A stretch of 64,000 nucleotides of DNA from Sinohyriopsis cumingii (lineage: Eukaryota > Mollusca > Bivalvia > Unionida > Unionidae): NCBI GenBank assembly GCA_028554795.2, contig CM068835.1, positions 27,902,311 to 27,966,310 of the forward strand. The letters are read 5' to 3'. The notes under the pieces are model-generated. The model did not search any database, was not told the origin of the DNA, and worked only from the letters and a program-made list of their open reading frames with translations. Positions 15,047 to 56,300 of this stretch are shown piece by piece; within the stretch, counting starts at the first letter, position 1, and every line of letters begins with the position of its first letter. Both the position numbers and the translations under genes were made by a program.

Positions 15047-15529
15047 TTTAGTAAACATTTCTCTACTGAAGTACTGATTTGTTTTTAATCCCTTTATAGA
15101 ATAGTAAATTTTGGTTCACAGTCAAAATTTCACAAAAATTAAGTTATAAATAGCAAAATTATAACAGTTATACTTTGTACATGTTACATTTGGCCAAGCT
15201 GAGAGACAATCATTTAATCAGACTGCATTATAGTCAGACAAGTCTAGAAACTTCATATAGCAAACAGAGCCATGCATGAGAGTGGGCACTGGTCAATTGG
15301 AATGTTAAATAAACAACACTTGACTAACAGCTGGTGGAGGAAGGGGGTGGGGGATTTGTCAAATTAGTTGCAAACTCTTGAGCAAGAATCTGTTATTATA
15401 TTCTGAAGTTATTACTTCTTTAAATGTCCATTAGAACAAATATTACAAACTGATCAGATTTTGCTTGGTTGCTTTTAATGTATACCACATTAAAGCTTAG
15501 TAAAAAAAACTGTGGCAATACAGTGACAG
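15047..15529. other. Spacer between two minisatellites, nothing recognised
   Basis: AT-rich, with no open frame or repeat structure. Confidence 0.5.
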
Positions 15530-16232
15530 AGTTAACAGGGCAGCACAATGGTAGGGTTGTCAGGGCAGCACATTAGTGGGGTTGTTGGGGCAGCACATTA
15601 GTAGGGTAGTCTGGGCAGCACATTGGTAGAGTTGTCAGGGCAGTACATTAGTGGGGTTGTTGGGGCAGCACATTAGTAGGGTAGTGTGGGCAGCACATTG
15701 GTAGAGTTGTCAGGGCAGCACACTAGTGGGGTTGTTGGGGCAGCACATTAGCAGGGTAGTCAGGGCAGCACATTGGTAGAGTTGTCAGGGCAGCACATTA
15801 CTGGGGTTGTTGGGGCAGCACATTGGTAGAGTTGTCAGGGCAGCACATTGGTAGGGTTGTTGGGGCAGCACATTGGTAGTCTTGTCAGGGCACCACACTG
15901 GTAGAGTTGTCAGAGCAGCATATTGGTAGAGTTGTTAGGGCAGCATATTGGTAGAGTTGTTAGGGCAGCACATTGGTAGGATTGTTGGGGCAGCACAATG
16001 GTAGGGTTGTCAGGGCAGCACATTTGTTAAGGTTAACAGAGCAGCACATTGGCAGGGTTGTCAGGGCAGCATATTGGTAGGATTAACAAGGAAGTACATT
16101 GAAAGGGTTAACAGGGCAGCACATTGGTAGGGTTGTCTGGGCAGCGCATTTGTATGGTTGACAAGGCAGCACATTGATAGGGTCAACAGGCAGCACATTG
16201 GTAGGGTTAACAGGGCAGCACATTCAAAGGGT
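15530..16232. repeat. Minisatellite, about 25-bp G-rich unit, about 28 copies
   Basis: Unit GTTGTCAGGGCAGCACATTG followed by GTAGA, with TTGGGG and TTAACAGGG variants. The strand is strongly G-biased (many GGGG and GGG runs), unlike the AT-rich surroundings. Confidence 0.93.
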
Positions 16233-17825: not shown

Positions 17826-17828
17826 TAA

Positions 17829-18480
17829 GGTGGCGCTCACCAGATAATATGTACTTTTGAGAGAGTGACGTATGTAAGGTGAAGTAGTTCGCATTTAAAA
17901 CATGCACAGTGGAGAGAATGTTTGCATACCTCTATGCTACATTAATGTAATGTGGATGATATTTCTTTTGAATATTGTACTTTTGGAAATTTTACATGAT
18001 TTAAGCACACTGCTAACTAAAATGACTGCTCCCTTGTGTTAAAAAATCAGTCTGAATTAGTCTAAAGTACACTATACATAGCAGCTATTAAAATAGGGAA
18101 AATGAATTTTGCCAGACTAGACAATACCAGCTTCTGAAAGTGCAATGAATGAATTACCAAATATATAAAATGTAAAAAAAGTTATCGGCTCTTTTTTATA
18201 CAACTGACCTCTGAAGTTCAGGAAGTGAAAATGACCAAGTAGAGCTAGCACTTTTTTGAAAGGTGCACATTTGAAGTAAGGCCAAGCTGTATACTCTATA
18301 ACCCATAGTACACCCATCAATCATACACCAAAATAAAGGGAATTAAAGGTTCTTTGCTTTATACCTAAGATATACAAGGTCTTTTTTAAATAGCCAGTAT
18401 AACCAGTGAGGAAAGCCGGGGACATTCTTTTTCTTTAAAATCCTAACCCTATGCAAAATGCGAAACTGTATAGCGCCACC
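17829..18480 (+). repeat. Terminal direct repeat 1 of composite A
   Basis: 652 bp, differing from repeat 2 (19198-19849) at about seven positions by eye and from the copies in composite B at a partly different set of positions. Contains a 67-codon minus-strand frame found in all four copies. Confidence 0.9.
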
Positions 18481-19197
18481 TTAAAGAAAATAAAAAAATG
18501 TTTGCAATTATTTTTTTTTATTTTCATATAATTATGTATGATGTTCTGAATAAAATGGTACATTCACATTGCATTTAAGCATGAAAATAAGCTAATTATG
18601 ATCATTTTTCTCTTGCTTACATAATTTGCCATGAGGTATGTTTGTGTGAGTAGTGACCTTAATTATGGGGAAATTAGAAGACTTAGAATATAGGAATAGA
18701 GTCAACTTAAATTTAAAACTGTTGCAATAAGTGACAGAAATATATGGTGAAAATGTTTCTTTTCATTTATTTGCAATGAAATAAAAAAATAAATGAAGAG
18801 AAAGTGAATTCGCTTCTTCCATATTAAACAATAGGCAAATATTTTACACTTTGACCTTTGACCTTTATGAAGCTGATGAGTTACCTCCCTTTTCTAATTG
18901 TAAAATTCATTGTTGATATCTCAGAAATAATTCTGTCTAGTTTCATGTTCCTGTCATTCAGCATAATATTGGTTGCTATGTTTACAAAATGTAATGTGCA
19001 TTCTTAAAATAGCTCACTTTTATCATGGGGGGGGTTAGGCTGGACTTGTTAGAGACTCTGACACTCATAAATACTGTTCTGTGGGGAAAAAGGCAGGAGA
19101 ATTATTCATAAGGATTGTTTTGATGCTTGCGACTTAAATGTTTCAGCCATATAAACATAATTAAATCATAAAAAAATAATACCTACATCTTCTTTAT

Positions 19198-19849
19198 GGT
19201 GGCGCTCACCAGATAATATGTACTTTTGAGAGAGTGACGTATGTAAGGTGAAGTAGTTCACATTTAAAACATGCACAGTGGAGAGAATGTTTGCAAACCT
19301 CTATGCTACATTAATGTAATGTGGATGATATTTCTTTTGAATATTGTACTTTTGGAAATTTTACATGATTTAAGCACACTGCTAACTAAAATGACTGCTC
19401 CCTTGTGTTAAAAAATCAGTCTGAATTAGTCTAAAGTACACTATACATAGCAGCTATTAAAATAGGGAAAATGAATTTTGCCAGACTAGACAATACCAGC
19501 TTCTGAAAGTGCAATGAATGAATTACCAAATATATAAAATGTAAAACAAGTTATCGGCTCTTTTTTATACAACTGACCTCTAAAGTTCAGGAAGTGAAAA
19601 TGACCAAGTAGAGCTAGCACTTTTTTGAAAGGTGCACATTTGAAGTAAGGCCAAGCTGTATACTCTATAACCCATAGTACACCCATCAATCATACACCAA
19701 AATAAAGGGAATTAAAGGTTCTTTGCATTATACCTAAGATATACAAGGTCTTTTTTAAATAGCCAGTATAACCAGTGAGGAAAGCTGGGGACATTCTTTT
19801 TCTTTAAAATCCTAACCCTATGCAAAATGCGAAACTGTATAGCGCCACC
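19198..19849 (+). repeat. Terminal direct repeat 2 of composite A
   Basis: 652 bp, same orientation as repeat 1. Its right end lies 86 bp beyond the EXT2 stop codon, so the EXT2 3' UTR probably runs into it. Confidence 0.9.
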
Positions 19850-19935
19850 TAAATACAGAATACAGGTATTATGATAAATTTAGTTACTGAGTTTAAAGTC
19901 AATTTCAACAATGACCATATTTATTATTAATTAAT

Positions 19936-20286
19936 TTAGAGGCTTCCGACATCATTGAAAATCTTCAATTCACTGGGAAAATTGTCTTTATAGAGGACTG
20001 GATCAGCCCTGAATTCCACATATTTAAGTGGCATGGACTGGTAGATACTGGCAAACTGGTTAATACAATCAGACCGCTCAACCATGTGTGTTACATCAGC
20101 TGAGATCATCTCTTTGTTTATGCACTCGGGGCACTTGAATTTCTTCCTGGGTGTCACTTTGATTGGAGCTTTGCCTGTAATGTTGGCAATAAGAATGTTC
20201 ATAGCAATGTCTTCACAGTTCATGTGTTCATCCACCCAGGCCTTTATATTTCCTGGCATCTTGTAAGTATACAGATAGCTGAAATA
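19936..20286 (-). CDS. EXT2: EXT2 coding exon 10, terminal (residues 595-710)
   Basis: Acceptor TTTTCCCAG|TATTTC; stop TAA at 19938-19936. Encodes [20 protein letters not shown], the CEDIAMN block, [13 protein letters not shown], and ends FNDVGSL, as human EXT2 ends FPNIGSL. An AATAAA (complement of 19920-19925) lies only 10 bp past the stop. It would leave almost no 3' UTR, so a later signal beyond or within composite A is likelier. Confidence 0.96.
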
Positions 20287-23200
20287 CTGGGAAAAAAAGT
20301 CCACATAAGAAATTGAGAACAAAACTCTAATACAATCATCATAGACAAAAATTCATACCAACAGAATAGGCTACTAGAAGGACTGTATATAGTTAACACA
20401 AATTCATCAATTTTCACACCTATCAATTTTGGACGGATTTCAAATTTGTAACAAACCATATTTCTAGATCCTCCTCATCAGCTGTGAGTTTAACTCTTTA
20501 AGCCACAAGTACACATCTAGTATCAGTATGACTGACTCAGATATACATCTAGTATCAGCATGATTGACTCAAGTACACATCTAGTATCAGGATGGTTGAC
20601 TCAGGTACACTTACAGTATCAGTATGACTGACTCAGGTACATATCTAGTATCAGCATGACTGACTCAGGTACACATCTAGTATCAGCATGATTGACTCAG
20701 GTACACATCTTGTATCAGCATGATTGACTCAGGTACACATCTAGTATCAGTATGATTTACTTAGATACACATCTGGTATAACTGCCTTACTGACTCACAC
20801 ATCAATTATCAGTCTGACTGATTCAGATGCACAACTGGTATCTTTGCCTGACTCGTATACACATATTTTATCATTGCCTGATTGACTCAGATGCATATAT
20901 GTTATCATTACCTGACTGACTCTGATACACATCTAGTATCACTGCCAAATGGACTCAGATCTATTATCACTGCCTGATTGACTCAGATACACATCTAGTA
21001 TCACCACCTGATTGACTCAGATAAATATCTAGTATCACTGCCAAACTGACTCAGATCTATTATCACTTCCTGACTGACTCAGATACACATCTAGTATCAC
21101 TGCATGATTGACTCAGATAAGCATCTAGTATCACTGCCTGGTTAACTCAGATACACATCTAGTATCACAGCCAAATTGACTCAGATCTATTATCACTGCC
21201 TGACTGACTCAGATACACATCTAGTATTACTGCCTGATTGACTCAGATACACATCTGGTATCACTGCCTGATTAACTCATATACACATATAGTATCACTG
21301 CCTGATTAACTCAGATACATATCTAGTATCACAGCCAAACTGACTACACATCTAGTATTACTGCCTGATTGACTCTGATACACATCTAGCATCACTGCCT
21401 GATTAACTCATATACACATATAGTATCGCTGCCTGATTAACTCAGATACATATCTAGTATCACAGCCAAACTGACTCAGATACACATCTAGTATCACTGC
21501 CTGATTAACTCAGATACATATCTATTATCACTGCCTGATTAACAGAGATACACATCTAGTATCACTGCCTGATTAACTGATACACATCTAGCATCACTAC
21601 CTGATTAACTCGGATACACATCTTGTATCAGCATGATTAACTCAGGTACACATCTAGTATCAGTATGATTTACTTAGATACACATCTGGTATAACTGCCT
21701 TACTGACTCACATATACATCTATTATCAGTCTGACTGATTCAGATACACAGCTGGTATCTTTGCCTGGCTCATATGCACATATTTTATCACTGCCAAATT
21801 GAATCAGATACACATCTATTATCACTGCCTGATTGACTCAGATACACATCTAGTATCACTGCATGATTGACTCAGATAAGCATCTAGTATCACTGCCTGG
21901 TTAACTCAGATACACATATAGTATCACTGCCTGATTAACTCAGATACATACCTAGTATCACAGCCAAACTGACTACACATCTAGTATTACTGCCTGATTG
22001 ACTCTGATACACATCTAGCATCACTGCCTGATTAACTCATATACACATATAGTATCACTGCCTGATTAACTCAGATACATATCTAGTATCACAGCCAAAC
22101 TGACTCAGATACACATCTAGTATCACTGCCTGATTAACTCAGATACATATCTATTATCACTGCCTGATTAACAGAGATACACATCTAGTATCACTGCCTG
22201 ATTAACTGATACACATCTAGCATCACTACCTGATTAACTCAGATACACATCTTGTATCAGCATGATTAACTCAGGTACACATCTAGTATCAGTATGATTT
22301 ACTTAGATACACATCTGGTATAACTGCCTTAATGACTCACATATACATCTATTATCAGTCTGACTGATTCAGATACACAGCTGGTATCTTTGCCTGGCTC
22401 ATATGCACATATTTTATCACTGCCAAATTGAATCAGATACACATCTATTATCACTGCCTGATTGACTCAGATACACATCTAGTATCACTGAATGACTCAG
22501 ATATGTATCTAGTATCACTGCCTGATTGATTGAGATACATATCTAGTATCACTGCCTGATTAACTCAGATACACATCTGGTATCACTGCCTGACTGACTC
22601 CAATACACATCTATTATCACTGCCTGACTGACTCAGATATACATCTGGTATCACTGCCAGACTGACTCAGATACACAACTAGTATCACTGCCAGACTGAC
22701 TCAGATACACAACTAGTATCACTGCCAGACTGACTCAGATACACATCTAGTAAATGGTTTTCATGCTTTTCTAAAGAAAAATTTCCAGGATGAAAATAAT
22801 TTTTTCAAGGTTCATATATGACTATTACTGAATGGAATTAAAGAATATTTCAGACTGTAAAACATGCTTTTTCTAAATCAAAAGATGGTTCTCTTTCAAG
22901 ACTTTCCAAAACATCTAAGCCAGAAAAGATGATCACGTATAAAACCACAAACATTTTCACATGAAACAAAGTTTGATTATATTCCTATAAATTGGCATGT
23001 AAAGTCATTTCAATGTACAAAATACAAATTCTAACTTTATTTTGCTGACATGCATTATGTTGCTAAGTAGGAACAACATAATGAACATAAATTAGTTTTG
23101 TTTCCTTTCAAGCCATTAATTCTAAAGAATTCTATAGTAATATATATTAGCACCTTATAGAAAGTAAACATTTCCTACTACAGTATAAAAAAACAATAAA

Positions 23201-32200: not shown

Positions 32201-32304
32201 AAAAAAAGACAGGTACACTTTTAACACTGTTTACTATGTACATAGAGAATACAGATGTGAACTTTAAACATGGGACATATAAACAAGGTCAATTACATGT
32301 GACA

Positions 32305-32376
<72 letters not shown>

Positions 32377-35300
32377 CATTTTCTATTTAAAGAACAAGTC
32401 ATCACAGTCTAGTCACAAGAAGACAAGCCTGTATTAGATGTTCAAAATGCACAAGAAAAAAATCCTTGAGCATTTTGTAAATCATGGCCTGCATAACTAG
32501 AATTTTGCTGGCTCCAGACAAAATTGTTTTTTATATACCTCTTTAGTGTCTGAATTTTCCAGTTTTTCTCTTGCAGACCCCTCAGAGATATGCCAGAACC
32601 TTCCTTGAGTCTTCTGACAAGAAGACTCCTCTAAGAGAAGGCATACCTCCTATTACAAAACAGGAGATATGGTACTCATATATTAGTGTATCGCTGCCTG
32701 CCATGGAAGAGCTGTACAAGTCATTCCATAGCCTGTCACTGCCTCCTGATGTGGAGGAGACACATCACTTACCTTGTAGAATGGTTCAGGCTTTAAAAGA
32801 TGTGGATGAGATGCACCATTCATCAAATAGCTGTCTGCCTTTTTGGAGAAGATGCACTGCTCATATAGTAACGTGTTGCTGCCTACCATGGAGGAGCTTC
32901 TCATAGTGTCACTACATCCCAATGAGGAGGAGATGCACCACTTTCATCCTTTCAGAGATAGTGAGTTATGCCTTACCCAAGGGAGGGATCAGCTTCACAC
33001 CTTTTTGAGTGGTGCATCAGTTGACAATCCTCTGAGTATTGCACTATGGCCTCATGGTATGGAGATGGGGTTCAGATCAAGTTTCACCTTCACCACCCTC
33101 TACCACCTCTTTATAAGCAACATTGGGAGTCTAACCAGAGTGCTCAGACTAGGCTAGGGGATAGAATAAAAATGGTATGGCCCCTTTCCTGTTATCACAG
33201 TGAATTCCTGTTGGATGTGGGGTCCTCCACATCAGGACCCTTTGTTTTGTATGCCTCTTTGACTTTTGGAGCTTGCCATCATAGCAGAGGTGACACTGCA
33301 GCTTGTGTCCTACCATCACCTCATCACCTGGTGGAAACAAACTGGAAGGCTAGAGGAATCACATCATCCTCAATGGAGGCACATTCTTTTCTTTCTCCTG
33401 CAAATGCAAGTCCTTCAGCCACCACTCACTGTGTTGAAGAGAGGGGCTTAAGCAGAGTGCACCTATTCCCTCTTCACAACGAGGAGATGTCTGTACACTC
33501 TCCAGCTTCAAGTGTGTTAGATCTATTTCCAATCTCATGGGCTCTATTGAATTTGACACTGAGGAAGCACAACTGACACCAACTTTTATACCTGCTCCTT
33601 CCTCTCTGTTGGTTGTGGAAGAGGAGGTATGGTCTTTTGATAAGGTGATTAATGAAATCTACTGCCTCTTGCCCCCTGACTTGTGCCTAAAACCATCTGT
33701 CACACAGTCCAAGATTCTTTCTAGTTTGGAAAAGATCTCGGATGTCTCAACACCAGCCAGACTCATCCTCTTCTTCCCTCACTCTGCAATGGTTTAGGAA
33801 TTTTCTGATGTTTTCTACAGACCAAAAACATGACTCAGCAACATCAAGGTTGGTCCATTCCCTCCTTGACTTTGATATCTTCTGCCAGCTAAAGGGTTCA
33901 TTCCCCAAAGTGGTCTACAAACCTCTCTAACTTAATGCCAGTCAGCCAAGGTGGCTATTTGAAGTAGAGCATATTCCAGTTAAAAACAATGAAGCCATGG
34001 AAGAAAGGCAGATAACTTGTAATTATAGCTTTACATGCTGGCCTCTTCTTAGTTGCTTCTTTGAGCATGCTATGAGAAGCTTCTTTGAACCCAGCATCCT
34101 TACAACATGTGCTGGAAGCTGTGGCCTAGACATCTTGGCATGCATTTCTGATGCAAATGCTTTTTCGGCGGAATTTACATACATCCAAAGTGATGTTGCT
34201 CAGTACACCCCAAAGGTCTTACTGAACCACAGTAAAGACTTTCGTAAGGCTGCTCCACTAGAAGCTGAGACTCTTTTTTGCAGGCCTCATTCCTAACGTG
34301 GCTTCTCAAAACTTGCTGGATCATCAATATCGATCCTTCACATACATGCTTGGCCAATCACATTCAGCCAGGAAACAGGTGCATCACACTCAGGGGCCTT
34401 CTGCCATGTTTTTCAAGCAGACACAGCCCAAGTCCAACACACAACCTCAAACCAGACCTCCTTGTCAGACATGCTCCCAGAGAATGAGAACAGAGGATCC
34501 TGATGAACTCAGAAGGAAGGAGGCAGTTTCACTCTCTCTTCTTTTCCTAAAAATGTTGAGGGGGAAACATCCCTAGGGACTCAAGCTCTCTCCGTTGCAC
34601 ATCCCTCTCCTAGATGTTCCCATCAGTGCTTGCCTAGGCCTCTTTTCACAGACAATGGTTGGGTCATTATAATCGTGAGGGGTACAGACTCCAGCTTCTG
34701 GAGCTACCTCCTCTATCCAGAACCCCTATCTTTCTTCACCAATCCAATCTGGTAGAACTGAGGGAGGAAATGTACACACTTTTACTGAAAGGGGCAGTCA
34801 AGAGGGTTCTAAAGTCTTCTATTTCCATATCATTCCTGTTTACCAAAAAAAGTGGAAAGTTTTGCATTAATATCAACCTCCTTTAAACTATTTTCTTCTT
34901 GAGGAATCTTTCGGGATGGAGACCACCTCCTCGATCTGGAATGCTTTTTGCCTACCTGATTGGCCAGTCTTTATTGTCCTTTAGGATGCCTCTCTACATC
35001 TCTAGTTTTGTCTGGACCAAGAAGTTTTCAACTTCAGGTTCTACCATTCAGAAATTCTCTGCACCCAGAGTTTCACTAGACCTATGGGAGTAGTAGCAGA
35101 TTACTCCTGAATATGGGGAACATCAATTCTCCAATATTTCAGCAAATGGATGATCCACAATGTTCAGATCCAGTCCTTTCATCAGGATCTGTTCCACTGA
35201 TGGTCTGTAGTAACTCAATTAGGATTTTTACCTCAAGAAATCAGAACTCAAACACTGCAAGACTTCTAACATGGGGATTTCCTAATGAATTAGAACTTGG

Positions 35301-38300
35301 TCTAATTTCCAAGGGATTGGATAGATCAAATCCTTGCTCTTTCAGGCATCGCAAGTAAACACTTCACGGTCTGCTCGACTGCACCTGTCCCTTTGAGAAC
35401 CTTGAATGCCACTGCCAACTTTGTTCTAACAGAATGTCTTCCTACATGTTCTCTACAATTCCTCCTCCTTTCAAGGTGGAACCTCACATGTTATTCTCTA
35501 TCAGACCCAATCATTCTATGACCAGCATCTCATCACCATTGCAATGCTGGATGAATCAGGACAGATTCATGATTGGGGTCCCCATGCATGCACCTGACCC
35601 ACACTCTTATCTGTTTGTCAATGCATCCGATTCTGGTTGGGGTGCTCATTTAGATCCAGAGGGCATACCTCTATAGAATAAGGCATTGTGTGTAATGGTC
35701 TTCTCTGACAACACACCCATCAAAACTAATCTCTGATGCTAATGAGGCACACATGCCCCATCTCTATGTATGGAAGTCTGGGACCTTCTCCACCAGTACC
35801 ACCTTGGAGAACATAGCACTCAAAGTTTGCCAGATTCTGGGCAAGAAGAACGTACTGGCAGACATCTGTCCACAGCTGTCAGAACCACCCTTGCAGAATG
35901 GACCCTTAATCGCTCCATGGCAGATTCCCTACAAACTGGGGGAGATCCATAGTGGATCTATTTGCATCCAAACTCAACAACAGACTTCCCTCCTACATTT
36001 CAGTCCCAGATCAAGGAGCATGGCAGTTGATGCCTTCAGTCTCCAGTGGAATCTGCTGTTTGTATATGCCTTCCCACTGGAAGTTTGATACAAGTCAGAA
36101 CTTTCGCTGCTCAGATCATTCTCAGAGCCCCACTGTGGCTATAGTTCTCATGGTTCAAATACCTTTTAGACCTGCTGATCGCTCGACCCAGGTCTCTTCC
36201 TCACATAAGTGATTTCCTGTCACAAAACCAGGGATCTCTCACACACAACAACCCATACATTCTCCACCTTCACACTTTAATCATCTCACATGATCTCTCA
36301 ACCAGAACAAGCTTTTGGGCTGAGTTAAAAACTGAATCATTCAGGTCAGGAGAGCTTCAACATTATAAGTCTATGATGCCAGGTAGAGAATCTTCTGTGA
36401 TTGGTGTAGAAGGAAACAAAGATCCTAGCTGTCCCTCTGTAAATTCTATTGCTCATTTCCTTTTGTTTCTCTTTGAGAACAAAATATGTCCAGTATCCAC
36501 TGTCAAGGGCATTAGAGGTGCCATTTCAATACATTTAATTGCATGGCAATTGATTCATATTTGTACCTTGCTGGTCTTATGAAATATTTTGAGCTGTAGA
36601 GAACTGTCTCACATTACCTTATGCCAAGATGGAATCTTTCTTGTGTTTTATGGTTATTAACCAACACTGCCGGCTTCCTTCAGGATGTCACTCTCAAGAA
36701 TATGTTTCCACTTGCCCTTGCCTCCACATGAAAACAAAGTGTGATTCATGCCATGTCTATCGACACAGGCTGTTCCTGTTTTAATGGGAATTATGGTTCT
36801 CTTTTTTTCCTTTGTCAACTGTGAGGGCACTCAATTTCCATCTTAAGGTATTTAAAGGGGAAAAAAAGGCTTGGAAGCATCTTTTCTATGTTCTCAAAGG
36901 CTTCACAGACATTTCACTTGCCACTATCTCATCATGGATTTTCACAACAATAAAAAGAGCATACCAGTCTCTTACTGATTGAGACCTTTCCTTTATGAAA
37001 CTGAAAGCCAATGAGGTTCAAGTCATTGCTACCTCATGAGCCTCAAGGTTCTCAATAGATTTACAAACTGAAGAGTCAGTTGACTCTTGACCCCAAAAAT
37101 CTCAAGAATTAAAATGAAAATCTCAAGTGTCAAAACTGAAATCTCGAGAGTCAATTCTTTTGGACAGTCATGAGCCTGTAGCTGATTCATCATTACTGGT
37201 TGAAACAAATGATGTTTAAAATTTCTTGTCTCTTGCCGAATAATGAGAAATACTTGTACAGTATTTTGTAAGAAACATACAATCTCATTTTTGTAAAAGT
37301 GTTTCTCTCACTATGTGTTACTGTGTGTATATTTTGTATATGAAACAGAGGATTATTTTATACTTATTATCTATTTTCAACTTCTCAACATATTCTTTTA
37401 TCAACTACTCAAATCATTTTATATGCAAAAATATACCCATACAACTATCAAGGTTTAATATTCAGATATCAAAGATGTACTTCACAGAACTGTCAGTTCA
37501 CTTTCCGTACTTCTTAAATTTTCTAAAAAAATTCAGAGATTGAATCTTCTTCTCCTTCTCCTCAGAGCTGACACCATCTTTCTGTTTCTCTGAAGTCTGA
37601 GGGTCAGAAAATTGATCACTGGTAGGTCATTTCTGAGACTGAGACAGAAAAGAAAAAATATGTCTTTGTGCCATAGTGATTTTAAAGTTCTGATGTATGC
37701 ACTGTTATTAAAATGTAATTGGGGGTATGTGTAAAACTAAAATGGTGGATTTTTGGCATGAAAAAGAAAGCTAAACAATGACTATGGGTAACGTGTTGCT
37801 GCTATTAAACTATAAATTAATAATATAAGACATATATCCATCGGCAACTATATCACCATTCAAATAACAAGTGTTATAAAATTCAAAAACAGACTCCAAA
37901 TAATATGTTCAAACACAAGGGTTGCTTTATGAAGTCATCATGGACCAAAAGTAAGCCCAAATCTAAATGTAACTGGACACCAATTTCAATGTAAAATATA
38001 TAAAAAGCATGCACAATTCCCCCACCTGAACAAATATACTTCTTAAAATTTTGTTCCCAACTGATAAAACTTTTATCCAAAATGATGGCACAAACACCCA
38101 AGAAAAATCCCTGAAATAGTCAAAAGATACCGTGGACAGCAGTTGATCTCACAATCTGAAAGATGTTGGATACTGCTTGAAAAGCAACTACATTTAACTG
38201 TATCAGTGGGCCTAACAAAATTATCAAGATATTTGATGTTCCAACAAAAGAATAGCCCCTTCAGACAAGCAACTGTTGGAACAATCTCTACTGCTTCTCC

Positions 38301-41300: not shown

Positions 41301-44300
41301 ATATGCATACAAACATGCATATTAAATTTCATTTATCTATATATGTATACAAACATGCATATTAAATTTCATTTATCTATATATGCATACAAACATGCAT
41401 ACTGAATTTCATTTATCTATATATGTATACAAACATGCATATTAAATTTCATTTATCTATATATGTATACAAACATGCATATTAAATTTCATTTATCTAT
41501 ATATGCATACAAACATGCATATTAAATTTCATTTATCTATATATGCATACAAACAAGCATATTAAATTTCATTTATCTATATATGCATACAAACATGCAT
41601 GTTAAATTTCATTTATCTATATATGTATACAAACTTGCATATTAAATTTCATTTATCTATATATGTATACAAACATGCATATTAAATTTCATTTATCTGC
41701 CTCCTGTACTTTTTTTTCAGCATGCATTCAAGGATGCATTCAAGGTCTTTGTAAAAAAAAAGTTTAAAAAATGTATAAAAGAAAACTGAAATATTACTAA
41801 AATCTAATATGGCCATCTAGATGCAAATACAAACAAACCGAGCAAATCTGATTTATCTAAGAGTAAATTTTTGCTAAATCATGCAAAGAAAGTTTTGTCC
41901 AATGAAAAGTTTGAAAAAGGTTACAAACTCAAAATTTCTGGCTGGGAAATTTAATCAGGTCATTACTTATGTATACGATAAAGTTTGCAAAATTTTAATA
42001 GTGGTTTTCTGCCAATGTATTAAAACAGATTTGGGATGAAGTATAGATGCACTGACATACTGTAATGAAATAATATGCCACTGAAATCACAGTCTGGGAT
42101 ATATAAGCACTCACAAACCAGTCTACTTAAATTACCATATGGCCATACATTGTACTTGATTTTTAAGGTATATTCCCAAACTCCAACTGAAATGGAACAG
42201 TCTCCTTCCAAAATAAATTTATTGGGTCTTGGAAGAAACTATGGCAGCCTTTCTGTAAAAGATCCTTTATTGTTTCCTTGATTCTGTTATTAAGATAACT
42301 ATCTGGAATTTACACTTTTTTGTGTCATTCTATATTATGAAATGCAACATTTCTAATTAACAGGTTTTCAGTCATGTATTCTCCTTAGATGATTAGATGA
42401 ACAAAAGTATTTCCCTTGATGTAGGGAATTCATCATTACCTTCTTTTCCACTGTGAGTATTGTTTTCACATTTTATGTTTTTATTGTTTTCTGACAGGGA
42501 TTAGAACAAAGCAGAACTAGCTACTAAACCAATGTGAAGATACATAGGATGGTTGCTTGTCTTAATATGCTCTCTTATTATGTCCCTGACATCAATAGCA
42601 AGCAAAACTAACCTGCAGTACATGTGGATAATCATACTTGACAGTTCCCCTGCATCTCCTTGAGAAATTAAAGGTTCTTTGCAGAATACCCTCCTCCTCC
42701 TCCTCATTTTCACACTTGTCTAGTAAAAGAAAATCAGTCTTCAAATAACTTTCCATTTCTGTCAAGACAGCTCTGTACTCATGGTGTAGGCCAATCTGTG
42801 CTGACACTAGCAACCAAGGACGACTGTCCCTTAAAAATGAAGAAAAACAAACATCAGTGTCTGTTACATTAAAAACAGACCTTACATCTTTTTAGTGCTG
42901 CAAAGGATCGTGATGATGAAATACAAAATCTGTTTTAGATGGAAAAGTTATGGGTCTATAACTCTCTAAAGAAAAACTAACTTAATCCTACAGCAGTGTC
43001 AAGGGTCACAACTCTTGTTACATACAGAAAGAGAAGTATGCAGTCTAATAATATTTAAAATATGGAGTGACTTAATGATGAGGTTATTAAATATGAAATT
43101 ATAATAAAAAGCCCCAAAAGCAACAATACTTTAAATTGTACATGACACCCTGCCAACATAAGGGAATACACATATAGTATTTGTCCTGAAAAGAAATGTC
43201 ATGATGAAAAGCAAAGGTCAAATCTATTTTATTAACAGCAACCTTGACCTTGAGTATGCACATCCCCAAACCAAAATTGGTTCTTTCTTAGGATGAAGAA
43301 GACACATGTAAAATGTTCCATACAAATGCACTGTGTAGTGCTTAAGTCACTGTCTGGAAATTAAATGCAAGGTTAAATCCATTTGTAGGAACTGTGGTCT
43401 TGACCATTACTAATGACCCCCAAATCAACAGGCTTCTTGCTGGGTCTAAGGGAAACATTTCATTGAATTCTGTTATTTTTAACAAAAGTTATCAAGAAAT
43501 GAAATGCATTGGTCAATCTTATTTTTTTAGCAACTGTGGCAACTAACCCTGAAATAAATCAACAGGATTTCATCCAAAGTTTAGGGAAAGAAGAGTACTA
43601 AATTTCACTGTATTTTATTATCTAAAACTTAAGTTATCGTCCCAAAATTAAATCCATAGGGAAATTCTATTTTTAGCAAAATGAAGCTTGAACTCTGAGC
43701 TAGTGACACCAAAATCAACTGGTTGTTTTCTTTGGCTAAGGGAAACAGAAATACCAAGTTTCATTCAAATCTGTATATTGGAACTTAAGAATCATCTATA
43801 AATAAAATGAATAGACAACATTTTTTTTTTTATAGCAAGAGTGACTTTAATCCTGGATCTGCTGATCCCATGAACAACAGAGTACTTTCTTGGGCTGCTG
43901 ATCCCATGACCAACAGAGTACTTTCTTGGGCTTTCTAAGGGAAACACATACACCAAGTTGCACTGAACTTACGTCATCATGCAGAAACCAAAACAGATGT
44001 CTATCCCTTGCCCAACTGCCAGGGCTGATGATGTTAAACTATAGGCCTTAAGGTACTAATTCTATTGAAGAATGGGACCCAGTATAAAAATGAGTGGAGA
44101 TAAAAAGTATATATGGTTTTGGCTGGCCATGATTTGTAGATAATAAAAAGCACAAGTTTAGAAGAAAAAAATCGGACCAATCCAATTTGTAACTTTAAAA
44201 AATTTAGATAGTGTTTTGTTAATGGAATTACATCCCTTTTACAGACCCGAGTTTAGAACACTGATTCCTGAAATTAGAATCTGATTCCTTAGAAAAATTT

Positions 44301-47300
44301 AAATTTAAAGTTGTTAAATTTGTAATGTCATGGTGTTTCCATAATCTCACTATGCAAGTTGAATTAGCACTGTGAGTACTATAAAGAACAGCCTTATAGT
44401 TGAATTAGCACTGTGAGTACAATAAAGAACAGCCTTACAGTTGAATTAGCACTGTGAGTCCATTAGAAAACTGACTTAGAGCTGAATTTGCACTGTGAGT
44501 CCATTAGAAAACTGACTTACAGTTGAATTAGCACTGTGAGTCCATTAGAAAACTGACTTATAGTTGAATTTGCACTGTGAGTCCATTAGAAAACCGACTT
44601 ACAGCTGAATTTGCACTGTCAGTCCATTAGAAAACCGACTTACAGTTGAATTTGCACTGTGAGTCCATTAGAAAACTGACTTACAGTTGAATTTGCACTG
44701 TGAGTCCATTAGAAAACTGACTTACAGTTGAATTAGCACTGTGAGTCCATTAGAAAACTGACTTACAGTTGAATTAGCACTGTGAGTCCATTAGAAAACC
44801 GACTTACAGTTGAATTAGCACTGTGAGTCCATTAGAAAACCGACTTACAGTTGAATTTGCACTGTGAGTCCATTAGAAAACTGACACAGTTGAATTTGCA
44901 CTGTGAGTCCATTAGAAAACTGACTTACAGTTGAATTTGCACTGTGAGTCCATTAGAAAACCGACTTACAGTTGAATTTGCACTGTGAGTCCATTAGAAA
45001 ACCGACTTACAGTTGAATTTGCACTGTGAGTCCATTAGAAAACCGACTTACAGTTGAATTTGCACTGTGAGTCCATTAGAAAACCGACTTACAGTTGAAT
45101 TTGCACTGTGAGTCCATTAGAAAACCGACTTACAGTTGAATTTGCACTGTGAGTCCATTAGAAAACTGACTTACAGTTGAATTAGCACTGTGAGTCCATT
45201 AGAAAACTGACTTACAGTTGAATTAGCACTGTGAGTCCATTAGAAAACTGACTTACAGTTGAATTTGCACTGTGAGTCCATTAGAAAACTGACTTACAGT
45301 TGAATTTGCACTGTGAGTCCATTAGAAAACCGACTTACAGTTGAATTTGCACTGTGAGTCCATTAGAAAACTGACTTACAGTTGAATTTGCACTGTGAGT
45401 CCATTAGAAAACCGACTTACAGTTGAATTTGCACTGTGAGTCCATTAGAAAACCGACTTACTGTTGAATTAGCACTGTGAGTCCATTAGAAAACCGACTT
45501 ACTGTTGAATTAGCACTGTGAGTCCATTAGAAAACCGACTTACAGTTGAATTAGCACTGTGAGTCCATTAGAAAACTGACTTACAGTTGAATTAGCACTG
45601 TGAGTCCATTAGAAAACCGACTTACAGTTGAATTAGCACTGTGAGTCCATTAGAAAACGGACTTACAGTTGAATTTGCACTGTGAGTCCATTAGAAAACT
45701 GACTTAAAGTTGAATTTGCACTTAGATTTCTAAAGAGAATACAGTGGTTCTTCATATGCATATACACTTACTATAGAGGCTAAAGTCTATGGAAATAAGA
45801 AGCAAAATTACTACCTTTTGTCAAACTCACAAAGATTTTCAGATATGGCACATAGTTGTGTGCGTGTACTCACCAGTCAATTAAGATTTTATTCATAAAA
45901 GTAATTCCATAAAAAGAGCATAATTTCAATAATAAAAATACACAACAAACATTAGCTGTGTCCTATGCATGAATAGTACATGTACTTCATCTGAAAATGT
46001 CAAAGGTATTGACCTAGCAATACTCTTGTGATGAAGATTCAATAGGTGCGTGTACCTGCAAACTGTATGAAACTAGTTTGGGAGTAAACCATTCAACTGT
46101 GTGAGTTCATAGATTCATTGTGAATTCATTAAAACATGTGGAGTCATTCTCTAAAGGAAAGAAAAAATAAAAAACAACAACACTCCCCATATTCATTAAC
46201 ACATTTGCTTTATAACTGTGACTTCGCTTTGCTACAGAGCAGTAGGGAGTAGAATATTTTATTATATTAGCCAATCTCTCCACCCCTACAACTTGAATGG
46301 TTTTGTTCCACCCAGTGTTGATGCTGGAAGAACAGTTTCCCATGTATAAGTGAATGATATAAAGATAGAAAATAAAAGAGTTCAGATGATAGGGGGTGTT
46401 GTTGTTTTGCATGTGTGGCAATAATCAAAACTGCTGAAAATTCAGTCCATAAACTTGTTTCAACAGGTATTTATGGATGAATGAGCAGGCATAGATAATC
46501 TATTGTTATCCCATAAAATGTTAGGTAAATTAATTGATTTATAAATTCAGTTAAGAAGCTTTTTAGACAAGCACACTGTCTGTTTGACTTGTGAACTCTA
46601 AAACTCAAAGCTGATTGCATTTGTTTAACTCTGGATTGAATCCAGCCTGGGGCTTCATGCTTCTCATCTTTGTACCCCTTATCTGTTGTAAATACCCAAT
46701 AATTTAACACACTGACCCCTTTTTGTTTGAACAACTAGAGCAAAAATAATTTTTATGGAACAACGGGGTAATTTTTATATGAAATGCAGAATGGTATTAT
46801 TGGTCAACTGACTGCATGATGACTGATAACATGCATGTGTTGGCAGCTTTATTGTTTGGGGTGTGAATTTCATTTTATATATCATTGCCCTGTAAATGTA
46901 ACAAACTTTAGTGGTGAGATTAACACCGATGATTAGCAATTACTGAAATTAATTGATTATAAATTCAGATGTGAATCCTTTCTTTCCTTTGAGCAAAAAC
47001 TGTATACAGAATGCATTGAAGAAAAATGGAAAAGACTCACTAGTTTATATTATTCATAGTTCAATAACAAGATTAACACTTATCAGCTTTTTAACGAGCT
47101 GACTTCTTCTAAAACTAAGCTAAGATGAAATGGCAGTGATCGGCTACTAACACATGTGAAATGAATATTAACAAATTATAGAAACTTTGAAACTTTTCAT
47201 ATCAAGAAAGTTGCAATCATAAGACAATTTTTTCATCAAGATATCTTTTTAAATTCTTAAATCAAACTTATTTATTTGGCATAAAACCTTGCACTTCTTC

Positions 47301-50300
47301 AAGAAATTGGTTAAGTTATTGTTAAATGTCGTGAGCCATGCTATGATTGTGTTATAATCCAAATTCGTACATGATCTCTTCCCCCCAATGATAACTAACA
47401 TTTTACACCTTAGTTTTGAACTCTGAATTTTTTTTCCATGAACAATTTTTGGGAGCCATGCTACAATAGTGTTATATCCAAATTCATGCTATAATGAAGT
47501 GTGCAACAGCAGGGTTACACCATACGTTTAGATGATGAGCAGTTCGAAATGAGTTTTGTAACATCATAGTGTTTTCATATGTATACTATGGGAGCTGAAT
47601 TAGTATCACAGATCATTTGGGGTTATACAAACTCTAATCACAGATATCAACACATACGGACAGACCCAGACAATCAAAATTCTAATGTTCCAATCTATGA
47701 GGAACTAATTTTTTTCTAGTAAAATATGTCTATTCATGAATACCTAACCAGTCAAAATACCTTAAGAGACCTACTACTACCTCGCAAACCCAGCCCTCCC
47801 AGATAAAATTTTTGAGGTAAAAGAGCTAAAAGTCATCTTCCCACCTGGGCAGCGATTGGGCAGAGTGATCTTCCCTTAATACAGGGGTTAGTGGCAAAAC
47901 CCAGGAATATTTTAGTTACTACAGAAGCATATGGCATGCTCTCTATATGGATGTAACTGCGAGGAGGCTGAGACGGTGTTTATATATTATGATTGGGTAA
48001 GTATTCACGAAGAAACATATTTACTAGAAAAAATTTGTTTCTTCTATAATACACACAACCAATCATAATACCTTAGGTGAACAGGTAAGAGGTGGAGGGA
48101 ATTACATCCCTTTATCCCGGAGATGGGATCTCTGATCCACTAAGGTATATCAGACAGTTTCTAGGTAACCCGACTGGAGTAGACTTCATCTGTTGGGAAG
48201 CAGTTTCAGAAAGGGAAAATTTTCCCTCCCATAAATCCAGCGAAGTCATACAGCTGTGTCTTGTGAAGCTCTTGAAAGACCTGGAAATGTGACCTAATGC
48301 AGCATGGATCCTGAAGGTGGCCTTGAGTGTAAGTGTCCAGAGTAGAGAATGATTTCAGTACAAAGGTCTGGTTGCCCAAGGATAGAAGCATGTTCTTGGT
48401 GATTAAAGAGGGAACCATCATAAGTGAAACTGGCTCGTCTTGTCAGAACTGCATGGAATTCAGCTCCCCCGATAGGACATGTATTTCACTGACTCTGCTT
48501 GCCATTTATTAATGTGATAAGGAAGCAGGCCTTGTATGAAAGGTAAGCCAAAGGTGCCCTTGAAAGCAGTTCCTAATGTGTTTTGTTCAGCCAAGTTAGT
48601 ACCCATTATAGATTCCACTTTGGGTACAGAGCCAATGTTTCTGGCCATGTATAATCAAAGTTGGAGAGTAGACTGGATAAGTCTTTGTTTTGCCTGATAT
48701 CCTCTCTTCCATGATATCAAAAGGTGTCAGTAATCATGGAATAGTAACCTTGATTGTGTTTGGTGCTAACTTTTTCTCGTCAAAGAGCCAGAGAAGGAAG
48801 TTAGCCATTTTAGGTATAGATGCTTGTTATGTATAATGTATTCTTGTGTAAACCACCAGGTAAAACTTTTTCCATTTTTCTTTATAGACTTTCAGAGTGG
48901 AGGGCCTTCTTGCTTGAGTGAATTCTCTCCATGACTGAGAACTGTTTATTCCTATGGGCCTGTTTAACATGATCCAGATGTGCAGGTTCAATAGTTCTGG
49001 GTTGGGGTGAAACACCTGCCATCATATTTATTTGAGTAGATAAGGGAAATTCTCTATTTTCCAGAGAATTTCCATTGTGAGATTGAGGTCACTGATCCAT
49101 GACTTCTCCTATCTGAGTGGTGCATTGTGGGATACTTTGATTCTCTTGCTTTTTTTTATCACCTTTGGAATCAGTAGTGTTGGAAGGTAGACATATGTGT
49201 CCAGGCCATTGAAATATATGGATAGTACATCAACTGACAGGGATAAAGTAATCATTTGTAATGAGCACATATAAAGGTGACTTAGGATTATAAGGTATGC
49301 TGCTGCATTGAGCAAACCTAAAAGGCAAGGTGATTCCCATGTGGAGAGAGATCACCTCGAGAGTAACAAAGCCACCATGGTCCTGATTTCCAATGCCTGT
49401 TCCTGAGGGAGAAGTACTCTGTTTTTACTGGTGTGTTGAATTCCATACCTAGATGAAAAATATTTTTGAGATGGTACTAGGTTGTTCGTGTTGACAAGGA
49501 AAAACAGATTTGTAATAAGTGTAACCAGGGTTATCAAATCATATTCTAATATATAACTCATCTGATGTTTTTGCAGGATGTAACTTGATGTTGCCACTTT
49601 GGAGATGGTCTGGACATCAGCCATAACATGGTTCATCAGACGACTGAAGACCCAGGGAATGATGTTGAATCCAAGTGGGAGCACTCAGAATTGATAATGA
49701 ATTGACAGAGGACTCTTAAGTCAATGACAGGACACAGAGTGCTGATTGTTTCTGGGACCAAGAAAAGTCTGGAATAAAATCCAGGGGAATTTAAATTTCA
49801 AAAAATTTCTATTACCCTTTTCTGAAGAAGGTTGTTTATCTTTGGCTGCAAGGTGATGGCTTTAAATGGGTCTGTTCGAACATTTGTAACTAATGGGACT
49901 TGGGACAGAGAAGGAGGTGTTTTGAAAGTGATGCAGAGTCTCTCGGAAACCACTTGTCGGGTCCAATGATCATCATGGCAAATCTGTTGCATTTGGCAGC
50001 GAAGAATTTAATCCTTCCTCTATCAGGATCTCCATGAATGGCAGTGCAGAGTGATGTAATTTTTTGAGAGATAGAGGTTGTTGTTTATAGAAACTCTGGC
50101 ATAATCAATTGCTACTTCTCTGACTGATGTCTACTTTGGTTTGCGAGAACCATGGTTTTAGAAAGGAGGAACTACGAGTGGACAACGTTTTAGAGGTTTG
50201 TGTTCAAGTTGTGTCCCTTGGTTCCTTTTGTTAGTTTCCCAAAATGTCTCTCTATTGCTGTTGCAGTTGAGGGGTGGGAAAATATGTCTCCTTAGTGGCT

Positions 50301-53300
50301 TGTTTGTGTACTTCATCATCTGGCCATTAAAAAGTAGAGTAGATGATAATGGCTGTGCTCGTAGCTTGGCCTTATGATGGTCATTAAGGTGGAGGTGGAT
50401 AGCAGTGCACCTTGTGCCAATTGTAAATTTGCAGCTCTGTCATGTGGTGTTTTGAACTGGAGAGCCATTAGTTGATTTATCTCCCTTATCTGCCAAAAAT
50501 TCCTCCACTTAGGACATACCAGCATGTAGGATTATGGTGTTTTCATCCTTAGACGTGCTTTTCTGCACTTTGTCCATGGTCTAATCTGTAAGACAAATAG
50601 AGCAGAACATGCAAAACTGTTGTAGCTCTGCACCTATCTCTTATTATTGAATGCAAAATCGACGCAGAGCTATCCTTTCTAGTGTTACCTGGAAAATAAC
50701 AGACAATTTAATAAAGCCATGAAGAATCCAGGTAAAAAAACAGAATAATTCACCATACTGCCTGTGAGAGATTCAAGAACGACCTATCCAGGTAAATGCA
50801 ATGAAGCATGGCACGTGGATGCTAAATGTATTAGCAAAAAAACTCACCTGTATTTAGCCAGCTGTTGTGGAATTATACATATATTAAGAGTGTTCTATAG
50901 TTTTCAGGGACTCGCACAAACAAAAATAAAAAGCACAATCTGAATTTATTTGTGAAGCCGAATAGGCTACCAGAGCAAATATCTATGTACAATTAAATTT
51001 GTAAAGATGACAAAGTGTGGTAAAAGTTTAAAGGCAAAACTCTACAGACATAGAGAGAAAGAAAAATTGAAAATATAGAGTGAGTATATTTTCCTTGTGA
51101 AGTGCAAACTCCTACAACTTTTATCACAGTTGATTTTGGATTTTATGAGGTTTCTCGTGGTGACAGCACGCTTCTTACCACAAGTAGAAGTAGTAAATGA
51201 GATATCCATGGGTTTTGCTGCCAATCCCTATATCAAGGAGACATCACTCTGCCCGACTGCCACCTGGGTAGGCAGATAACCTTTAGATAACTAAACATTT
51301 TATCTGGGAGGGCTGGATTTGTGAGGAAGTTGTAGATTTCCTAAAGTATTATCATGACTGGGTAATGTATCTAAAGAAGATATTTAAAACAAAAAAATTC
51401 TAAGAATATTTTTTTTTCATTACAGGTATGACTTTGGTGGCAGCTCGACATCCACCACAAGAGGGTTGTACACGGGTAGTGAGACATCAAATGTGCGTCT
51501 GTACGACCAGGTGGAGAATCCTCCACCAGCTATAATTGCCTTCCCACAATCTACCTCCAGAACAGTGGAGTAGTCTGGCACACTACCAGGCAGCATGTTG
51601 AACAGTATGTGGTTGGAGCCGGCATTCCAGCTGTACAAAAAAAAAGCAATTTTTGTTAAAGTTCTTCATGCATGCATAATACAAGTTATTTATGTATATG
51701 GAATACAAGTTATTTATGCACATGGAATACAAGTTATTTATGTATATGGAATACAAGTTATTTATGTATACATAATGCAAATTATTTATGCATACATAAT
51801 ACAAGTGATTTATTTATGCATAATACAAACTATCAATGTATACATAGTACTAAAATATAAACTGGAACTGACAGTGAGAACCAAATTGTCACCAAGCATT
51901 TTCTGTGATTCTTTCTCCCCAAATGCATTAACTTGATTCCCAATGCTATCATCTGATACTCTATTGTAGAGGATTGATTAAGAGAATGTTCTAAGCATTA
52001 ATAAGCCCATCTCCCATAATATTCAAGTTGCACAGTCTTCATCATGTAGAGGATTGATTAAGAGAATGTTCTGAGCATTAATAAGCCCATCTCCCATAAT
52101 ATTCATGGTGCACAGTCTTCATCATGTAGAGAATTGATTAAGAGAATGTTCTGAGCATTAATAAGCCCATCTCCCATAATATTCAAGTTGCAGTCTTCAT
52201 CATGTAGAGGATTGATTAAGAGAATGTTCTGAGCATTAATAAGCCCATCTCCCATAATATTCATGGTGCACAGTCTTCATCATGTAGAGGATTGATTAAG
52301 AGAATGTTCTGAGCATTAATAAGCCCATCTCCCATAATATTCAAGTTGCAGTCTTCATCATGTAGAGGATTGATTATGAGAATGTTCTGAGCATTAATAA
52401 GCCCATCTCCCATAATATTCATGGTGCACAGTCTTCATCATGTAGAGGATTGATTAAGAGAATGTTCTGAGCATTAATAAGCCAATCTCCCATAATATTC
52501 AAGTTGCAGTCTTCATCATGTAGAGGATTGATTAAGAGAATGTTCTGAGCATTAGGTGGCGCTATACAGTTTCGCATTTTGCATAGGGTTAGGAATTTAA
52601 AGAAAAAGAATGTCCCCGGCTTTCCTCACTGGTTATACTGGCTATTTAAAAAAGACCTCGTATATCTTAGGTATAATGCAAAGAACCTTTAATTCCCTTT
52701 ATTTTGGTGTATGATTGATGGGTGTACTATGGGTTATAGAGTATACAGCTTGGCCTTACTTCAAATGTGCACCTTTCAAAAAAGTGCTAGCTCTACTTGG
52801 TCATTTTCACTTCCTGAACTTCAGAGGTCAATTGTATAAAAAAGAGCCGATAACTTTTTTTACATTTTATATATTTGGTAATTCATTCATTCCACTTTCA
52901 GAAGCTGGTATTGTCTAGTTTGGCAAAATTCATTTTCCCTATTTTAATAGCTGCTATGTATAGTGTACTTTAGACTAATTCAGACTGATTTTTTAACACA
53001 AGGGAGCAGTCATTTTAGTTAGCAGTGTGCTTAAATCATGTAAAATTTCCAAAAGTACAATATCCAAAAGAAATATCATCCACATTACATTAATGTAGCA
53101 TAGAGGTATGCAAACATTCTCTCCACTGTGCATGTTTTAAATGCGAACTACTTCACCTTACATACGTCACTCTCTCAAAAGTACATATTATCTGGTGAGC
53201 GCCACCATAAAGAAGATGTAGGTATTATTTTTTTATGACTTAATTATGCTTATATGGCTGAAATATTTAAGTCGCAAGCATCAAAACAATCCTTATGAAT

Positions 53301-56300
53301 AATTCTCCTGCCTTTTTCCCCACAGAACAGTATTTATGAGTGTCAGAGTCTCTAACAAGTCCAGCCTACCCCCCCCATGATAAAAGTGAGCTATTTTAAG
53401 AATGCACATTACATGTAAACATAGCAACCAATGTTATGCTGAATGACAGGAACATGAAACTAACCAGAATTATTTCTGAGATATCAACAATGAATTTTAC
53501 AATTAGAAAAGGGAGGTAACTCATCAGCTTCATAAAGGTCAAAGGTCAAAGTGTAAAATATTTGCCTATTGTTTAATATGGAAGAAGCGAATTCACTTTC
53601 TCTTCATTTATTTTTTTATTTCATTGCAAATAAATGAAAAGAAACATTTTCACCATATATTTCTGTCACTTATTGCAACAGTTTTAAATTTAAGTTGACT
53701 CTATTCCTATATTCTAAGTCTTCTAATTTCCCCATAATTAAGGTCACTACTCACTCAAACATACCTCATGGCAAATTATGTAAGCAAGAGAAAAATGATC
53801 ATAATTAGCTTATTTTCATGCTTAAATGCAATATGAATGTACCATTTTATTCAGAACATCATACATAATTATATGAAAATAAAAAAAAATAATTGCAAAC
53901 ATTTTTTTATTTTCTTTAAGGTGGCGCTATACAGTTTCGCATTTTGCATAGGGTTAGGAATTTAAAGAAAAAGAATGTCCCCGGCTTTCCTCACTGGTTA
54001 TACTGGCTATTTAAAAAAGACCTCGTATATCTTAGGTATAATGCAAAGAACCTTTAATTCCCTTTATTTTGGTGTATGATTGATGGGTGTACTATGGGTT
54101 ATAGAGTATACAGCTTGGCCTTACTTCAAATGTGCACCTTTCAAAAAAGTGCTAGCTCTACTTGGTCATTTTCACTTCCTGAACTTCAGAGGTCAATTGT
54201 ATAAAAAAGAGCCGATAACTTTTTTTACATTTTATATATTTGGTAATTCATTCATTCCACTTTCAGAAGCTGGTATTGTCTAGTTTGGCAAAATTCATTT
54301 TCCCTATTTTAATAGCTGCTATGTATAGTGTACTTTAGACTAATTCAGACTGATTTTTTAACACAAGGGAGCAGTCATTTTAGTTAGCAGTGTGCTTAAA
54401 TCATGTAAAATTTCCAAAAGTACAATATCCAAAAGAAATATCATCCACATTACATTAATGTAGCATAGAGGTATGCAAACATTCTCTCCACTGTGCATGT
54501 TTTAAATGCGAACTACTTCACCTTACATACGTCACTCTCTCAAAAGTACATATTATCTGGTGAGCGCCACCTTAATAATACGATCTCCCATAATATTCAT
54601 GGTGCACAGTCTTCATCATGTAGAGGATTGATTAAGAGAATGTTCTGAGAATTAATGACTTTATCTCCCATCATATTCATGGCACACAGACTCTATCTTA
54701 AATGGTTTAGACAGAGTTGTCCAATATTACACACACATACATGCTGGACCACAAATCTGACAAAAGTGAATTAAATCTAAACGTATTTAACTGAACTTTA
54801 AACAGTATCATTAACTGACTGCAATTGGCTGCAATGTAATCAACAGTCCGATTATTGTGAAGAGAGACATTTTATGACATCTGCTGTGAATCTGATAAAG
54901 CTGATTAATAAAAATTACAAATTTTATGAAAATTACATTCAATGAAACGTGTCTATATTAGTCACCAAGTAAACACAAGATTCTGTCTTTATAGATGGGT
55001 CTCTTGGTCTTAATGTCAATAACATCTCAAAATATCCTCCTTAAATTGAGATGTTTAAACATCTTTCTTACTGCTGGGTAGGCAACAATCATTTATTTTC
55101 ACAGAACATTCAGCTGACATTGCATAATAAAATACATAGTCTTGAAGTTTTCTTAATAGAATTTTGTCTTATCATTGAGGAAATTGTGGAGGATTTCCTT
55201 ACACATGAGAAATTCTTTTTTCATGAATAAAAAGGTTACAACAGATTAAATTTTAACACAAAAGAGTTATTTGCAATCCATTTCACCATCTCTGCATCTG
55301 ACAAAACTATTTATTTTGTTAGATATATCATAAGCAAGAAAAAATAAAATCTCAATTTAAGGATAAATTTTGAGAATGTTAATGAAAAAAGGGCAAGTCA
55401 ACTTAATAAACTAGGTCAAAAATAATGTTTTTATGAATAAATGTTTTTTTTTTAATGAGGTATATAATGATGCAGATTTCACTGCATCTACCAGTCAAGT
55501 CGACAATCTAACATATTATCAAATTTCATTGCCAATCTTACTGACACTGTCACACATGATGCAAATTTCACTGTCAATCTAACTGATACTGTCACACATG
55601 ATGCAAATTTCAGTGCCAACCTAACTGACACTGTCACACATGATGCAAATTTCACTGCCAACCTAATTGACACCATCACATATAATGCAAATTTCACTCA
55701 CAACCTAACTGACAGTGTCACACATAATGCGAAGTTTATAATTAGCAAGGTATGTGTCATCTGCGAATGAAAACATACATATATTTTGTCCCTGTCCAAA
55801 GTTAAGATTCTAATAAAATTGCCAAACAAATTATTTTAATATTTTACGTCACATGTTACATGAAATCACTTACTAGTTACATGTTACTCATCTGTCTTAT
55901 ATTGTCTCAGGTACTGCATGGCTCAAAATTTAATCGCAATCCACTAACCTGAGGTCAATGATATGTCGACAGATCACTGAAATCCCAGCCATGACTAATT
56001 GGTTGGATCAGTGAACATTTCTGCTGGTGGCTATTTTAATAATTAATAAGTGGTCTTGTGTTAAATGTGTCCAAACTTAAGACACCATTCTCTTTCATGA
56101 TTAATTCAGCACAATATCCTATTTTATCTGAATGACAACTAATATCCTCCATGGTAAAATAAATACCTGCTGTGGCAATATATACATGTCATTTTATGCA
56201 TCAAGTAAATTATGATGATTAATGTCAGAAAAGTTTGCACATGGAACTAACTTGGCCCAAACAATGATTCAATACAGATAATAACAAATGATTCTGGGTA

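Follow-up and report, generated by a model that had tools for sequence, protein, structure and literature searches.

A KolobokP-type DNA transposon with long terminal direct repeats appears to form an abundant gene-less family in Sinohyriopsis cumingii

Two copies of a composite element in a 64,000-nucleotide stretch of the genome of the bivalve Sinohyriopsis cumingii (hereafter the window, G000:C12:27902311-27966310, with C-numbers denoting contigs of this 2.9-Gb genome, G000) are, with a probability that we place at about nine in ten, inserted copies of a KolobokP-type DNA transposon that is non-autonomous and has the form LTDR-INT-LTDR, i.e., an internal segment (INT, here S) held between two long terminal direct repeats (LTDRs, here R). 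They appear to represent an abundant, young and gene-less family that is new but belongs to a kind already described and does not amount to a new class of element, the match to KolobokP being one of anatomy. The order R(652)-S(713-717)-R(652) occurs twice in the window, at 17829-19849 (unit A, forward strand) and, inverted, at 52555-54571 (unit B, reverse strand), and the sequence bears out to the base the pairing that the original prediction had proposed:

17826..17828 (+): left target duplication of unit A, TAA
17829..18480 (+): first LTDR (R) of unit A, 652 bp, with the ends GGTGGCGCT..AGCGCCACC
18481..19197 (+): internal segment (S, INT) of unit A, 717 bp, starting TTAAAGAA and ending TTCTTTAT
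19198..19849 (+): second LTDR of unit A, 652 bp
19850..19852 (+): right target duplication of unit A, TAA
54572..54574 (-): left target duplication of unit B, TAA on the element strand
53920..54571 (-): first LTDR of unit B, 652 bp
53207..53919 (-): internal segment of unit B, 713 bp
52555..53206 (-): second LTDR of unit B, 652 bp, with the same letters as the first
52552..52554 (-): right target duplication of unit B, TAA
51965..52554 (no strand): tandem array of 80-bp units with unit B inserted at its edge, the array units representing the empty site

The two elements (2021 bp for A and 2017 bp for B) are 98.5% identical over 2,027 bp with the TAA counted in, and a comparison of both units in the window detected no similarity past the TAA into the flanks; hence, the duplicated flanks that would be a sign of segmental duplication are absent between A and B. 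Within the window, the motif GGTGGCGC and its complement are confined to the eight termini of the four R, and each LTDR carries short inverted repeats of its own (9 bp without mismatch, or 15 bp with 12 matched) with GG..CC at its ends. As had been predicted, a matching duplication surrounds only the whole unit: the outer triplet is TAA in both units, as against TTA and TAT at the inner flanks. At unit B the flanks joined with a single TAA differ at 3 of 50 positions from five adjoining 80-bp repeat units, at 4 from two further units and at 7 from another one, and a diverged unit of the same array lies beyond the element at 54627-54676. The match of the array units to the joined flanks reveals the site as it was before insertion and confirms the 3-bp duplication. 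No open reading frame longer than 49 aa lies wholly inside S of unit A, and none of those overlapping unit A (ATG, GTG or TTG starts) exceeds 67 aa. A scan of the window against Rfam at the gathering level recovered no family; a bacterial promoter and terminator scan of 17700-20000 gave no signal above that of shuffles; an exact 23-bp R pattern was absent from the viral contigs and genome contigs searched; and unit A was absent from the phages and plasmids searched.

Genome-wide, a 33-bp R-start pattern (up to 3 mismatches) matches 3,678 places (1,877 + 1,801), a pattern for S 1,485 (790 + 695) and one for the R-S junction 667 + 615, with the reversed-pattern controls of all three yielding 0. 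We scored 42 insertions with both ends and flanks, comprising 13 solo R, 27 R-S-R and 2 R-S-R-S-R. These were drawn from 51 element rows, of which nine were dropped, namely three pieces of C917 and six that were rearranged or cut by the ends of the fetched stretches (C1:190038559, two at C16:93165264-93168980, C9:305532, C4:110383300 and C2:20997051); two of the retained R-S-R are short in the alignment, by 4 bp in R or by 2 bp in S. As the rows derive mainly from the best 40 of 370 R candidates and the best 40 of 1,404 S candidates, the sample leans towards young copies. On C1, 65 of the 78 clusters among the 100 exact R starts listed are single, which suggests that solos are commoner than in the sample of 42 (a single exact start may also mark a composite with a mismatch in its partner).

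A 3-bp duplication flanks 39 of the 42 insertions (13/13 solos, 24/27 R-S-R and 2/2 R-S-R-S-R), against an average of 5.5 matches and a maximum of 14 in 500 shuffles of the flanks. At 4 bp there is no match in the 42; at 5 bp and 7 bp there is one each, the same as in the highest shuffles. The duplicated triplets are mostly AT-rich and of 14 kinds (TTA 10, TAA 8, ATA 5, TAT 4, TGT 2, TCA 2 and eight singletons), such that the TWA-type duplication originally predicted holds within the window, where TAA occurs twice, but not across the genome, where 21 of 39 are other triplets. The three R-S-R without a matching duplication (C2:47475683, C3:148939891 and C3:61287198) may have lost it through mutation or recombination, the sole explanation that we offer. 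Among the 29 composites (R-S-R and R-S-R-S-R), the left flank equals the TTA at the start of S in seven, and the right flank equals the TAT at its end in two; inner and outer flanks agree no more often than the frequency of these triplets predicts. Zator, an element with a 3-bp duplication, was considered on that account and dropped once KolobokP had been found.

Beyond the dispersed insertions, R and S also form tandem arrays. All three stretches fetched from C917 (50,374 bp), at 2-16302, 33150-36866 and 42083-50373, consist of R-S array, with one joint at which S directly abuts S. Genome-wide, 41 such S-S joints match a pattern that detects only joints with intact neighbours; 37 of them lie in C6:51956226-52079066, an array that spans ~123 kb as judged from the joint positions. 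Loss at the 41 joints amounts to 4 bp in 40 and 1 bp in one. All 36 steps between the C6 joints equal one bare S (~712 bp) plus a whole number of R-S units of ~1,369 bp. The joints look to have been copied along with the array, so that the independent events may be few. At C3:47351866-47371123, two of 15 S steps measure 713-714 bp as against ~1369 bp, and the R-S junction is missing from the list at exactly these two; both fall outside the 41 pattern-matched joints. A further array at C1:87642105-87664674 has nine exact R starts with a period of ~2542 bp, and its R-S joint lies 1,173 bp further than usual from the R start. It seems that an insert of ~1.17 kb inside R was copied to every unit, in which case this array grew in place.

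This ensemble of forms is not something undescribed, as the original prediction had allowed, for the layout agrees with that of KolobokP, which has 228 published families and was described in 2022 (Kojima and Bao 2022, Mobile DNA 13:24, PMC9587614). In the parts of that paper drawn on here, KolobokP is characterized by an INT between LTDRs of ~450 or ~660 bp; by a short TIR of 11-18 bp, perfect or imperfect, belonging to each LTDR, with 5'-RR..YY-3' ends; by duplications of 3-4 or 4-5 bp without a strong target preference, as opposed to the TTAA of other Kolobok elements; by solo LTDRs, (LTDR-INT)n-LTDR multimers and INT-INT joints with a loss of 3-4 bp; and by a species table that includes bivalves, some gastropods and other animals (PMC9587614). 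Correspondingly, the elements described here have 652-bp repeats with 713-717 bp between them, 27 R-S-R being recovered with both flanks; GG..CC termini with 9 bp perfect and 12 of 15 matched; duplications at length 3 in 39 of 42 with 14 triplets; solos (13/13) and R-S-R-S-R (2/2) with duplications; and 41 INT-INT joints, of which 37 are in one array, so that they stand for few independent events. The TTAA duplication of the other Kolobok lineages has no counterpart here, with 0 of 42 matching at 4 bp. With the ~660-bp LTDR class, as presented in those parts of the paper, our family shares the LTDR-INT-LTDR order, short TIRs, RR..YY ends, 3-bp duplications, solos, multimers and INT-INT joints, whereas it differs in an INT of only ~717 bp, the lack of genes, the thousands of R and arrays of tens of units. 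The non-autonomous families in Table 3 of PMC9587614 are likewise young and present as monomers, solos and multimers, with monomers of 2637 and 2453 bp and LTDRs of 473 and 664 bp, as compared with 2021/2017 bp and 652 bp here. A literature search found no other description of a DNA transposon with long terminal direct repeats, the further papers that it listed being judged by title and the start of the abstract. IS481EU was ruled out by its duplications, given as about 4, 15 or 25 bp in the part of its description used (PMC10045372).

The feature that most recalls retrotransposons is the likeness of the two repeats of an insertion. The R pair of unit B shows 0 differences, as originally noted, and that of unit A differs at 6 sites. 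Across the 27 R-S-R the mean is 2.22 differences within an insertion and 6.86 between insertions, the lowest mean in 5,000 permutations being 4.96. In 34 of 54 cases no other copy is closer to a repeat than its partner, and in 14 of 54 the partner is closer than every other copy. There is no alignment column that distinguishes first from second repeats (the imbalance is at most 2/27). In a tree of the repeats, where partners had been expected to cluster, many pairs do group and some partners stand apart, with 10 of 58 inner branches well supported and the bootstrap unsettled. Both of the features originally claimed, LTR-like terminal repeats and TIR-type ends, are present, and on average the LTR-like pattern holds, with some partners unpaired in the tree: the ends have been homogenised or copied from one template. 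Within a single array the R differ by a mean of 0 to 0.67 (four stretches with at least 3 R), versus 6.7 between insertions; in C917 the mean is 0.56 over 18 R.

This likeness, the lack of any column splitting first from second repeats, and the presence of multimers and of solos with duplications would all be accommodated by a small non-autonomous LTR retrotransposon (TRIM-like) with odd ends, whose repeats are made from one RNA template, whose solos arise by LTR recombination and whose multimers arise by unequal exchange or template switching. Solo repeats, tandem multimers and partner repeats that are alike are indeed common to TRIMs and our elements. However, TRIMs and LTR retrotransposons have TG..CA ends, a primer site, a purine tract and longer duplications, none of which was seen in R-S-R: R starts with GG and closes with CC, its inverted repeat is perfect over 9 bp, the duplication measures 3 bp, and by eye there is no TGG-type primer site or purine tract beside the repeats, where S starts TTAAAGAAAATAAAAAAATG and ends CATCTTCTTTAT. 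Further, R is missing at 41 S-S joints with 1 or 4 bp lost, an outcome not expected of LTR recombination. On these grounds we regard a retrotransposon as improbable, and the case cautions that near-identical pairs of direct terminal repeats do not prove one. Even less can be said for a chance pair of PIF/Harbinger-like MITEs that flanked a captured spacer and was multiplied either as a composite or through segmental duplication. Such MITEs share with R the short TIRs and the 3-bp duplication, solos with their own duplication exist, and TTA and TAA together make up 18 of the 39 duplications. Yet the target duplication of Harbinger is TWA and 21 of the 39 are not, which speaks equally against the PIF/Harbinger-like composite first suggested. 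The original prediction had named solos with their own duplications, combined with random spacers, as the mark of a chance pair; the solos are there (13/13), but the spacers are not random, all fetched composites having the same S. In addition, 26 of the 29 have their own 3-bp outer duplication, and A and B have no common flank. Moreover, an old relative in L042 likewise holds S (positions 1-705, at 74%) between two R, and there are none of the fixed differences between first and second repeats expected of two independent MITEs. We give this explanation, and with it a spread by segmental duplication, almost no chance.

The arrays, of about 50 kb in C917 (of which parts were fetched) and about 123 kb in C6, with units that are near-identical where read, might also be taken to mean that R-S is a satellite-like tandem repeat that seeds single copies through extrachromosomal circles, with a transposase playing a minor part. 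We deem this very unlikely: the dispersed copies stop at the R ends with 3-bp duplications in 39 of 42 cases, which points to insertion of the transposase type.

For the KolobokP-type transposon, it is observed that R ends with a 3-bp duplication bound the solo, composite and R-S-R-S-R copies alike, and that R is missing inside arrays. A DDE transposase from an autonomous KolobokP of the same genome would act in trans on R. By pairing a left with a right LTDR end it could mobilize solo LTDRs, R-S-R and multimers alike, would cut the target with a 3-bp stagger, and might excise single R from arrays. The likeness of partner repeats could come from direct-repeat recombination, be it unequal exchange, gene conversion or the entry of an R-S circle into R, perhaps provoked by an I-PpoI-like nuclease, and arrays would grow by unequal exchange. 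Reverse transcription would not be needed, and the ends argue against it. More tentatively, and less likely than not, KolobokP elements might act in this genome as builders of satellites: rounds of unequal exchange, which the element's own homing-type nuclease may have set off, would array both gene-less R-S units and transposase-bearing units to 50-160 kb, with the transposase removing single LTDRs from within the arrays and the arrays serving as a standing source of homogenised copies. If true, such a source of fresh homogenised copies would explain LTR-like identical ends without reverse transcription. How the ends of a composite DNA transposon stay homogeneous is a question left by Kojima and Bao 2022, as far as the parts used here go (PMC9587614), and this young, very abundant family of KolobokP type, which occurs as solos, composites, arrays and scars, offers material for addressing it.

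Candidate helper proteins are themselves arrayed in this genome. The I-PpoI-like zinc loop domain PF05551 has 150 scored matches out of 1,890 candidates and 0 in 14 control genomes; the matches are mostly in arrays (C1070, C1077, C1078, C399, C691 and other contigs) with a period of 4168 and short steps near 3701, and those listed contain one TAG, except C244:621052 and C18:30121164. The transposase-like PF20700 has 114 scored matches out of 2,060 candidates, 0 in the controls, and frames of up to 682 aa without an internal stop, with arrays on C862, C105 and C222. At C105:1995095-2156071, 38 scored matches, mostly 681-aa frames without a stop, extend over 161 kb in 17 steps near 4446, 19 near 3989 and one double step. 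The missing ~467 bp (PF05551) and ~458 bp (PF20700 on C105) would agree with a lost LTDR of the ~450 class and a few additional bp. We infer that both sets of arrays are multimers of autonomous KolobokP with excised LTDRs. PF20700, to which Pfam gives the name Mutator, would be the KolobokP transposase; in the parts of the paper used, Kolobok and MuDR are said to share a motif (PMC9587614). By eye, no unit among the matches listed combines PF05551 with PF20700, and none is tied to R. The larger autonomous relative with the same termini that the original prediction had sought, i.e., one with a 652-bp LTDR, did not emerge from the spacing of R starts on C1 or from a comparison of R positions (100 listed of 3,678) with the PF20700 and PF05551 matches: among the 100 exact R starts listed on C1, no same-strand neighbours are spaced by 3-12 kb, and the PF20700 copy at C1:126901389 is at least about 1.16 Mb from the nearest exact R start among those listed.

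The family also has older relatives. L041 contains part of S (75% identity) together with R (90%) at L041:2676-3697. L042 has, in the order R-S-R, fragments of R with 76-92% and S positions 1-705 with 74% identity, and a young unit is nested within this old relative at L042:2446-7237. Such relatives indicate that the layout has persisted for long, as has the size of S. At L052:849-3717 (G000:C1:190036266-190039134), an inverted R comes after an R-S-R, and the outer flank of the inverted R is the same as the left flank of that R-S-R; either the insertion was duplicated as a palindrome or the assembly produced this pattern. The window itself has a GC content of 34.5% and many minisatellite arrays with units of 25-49 bp (e.g., 8672-10035, 14324-15043, 15536-16224, 20510-22752 and 44357-45722), and at 56961-57461 on the reverse strand it holds a 166-aa open reading frame that resembles part of exostosin-2 and looks like an exon of it.
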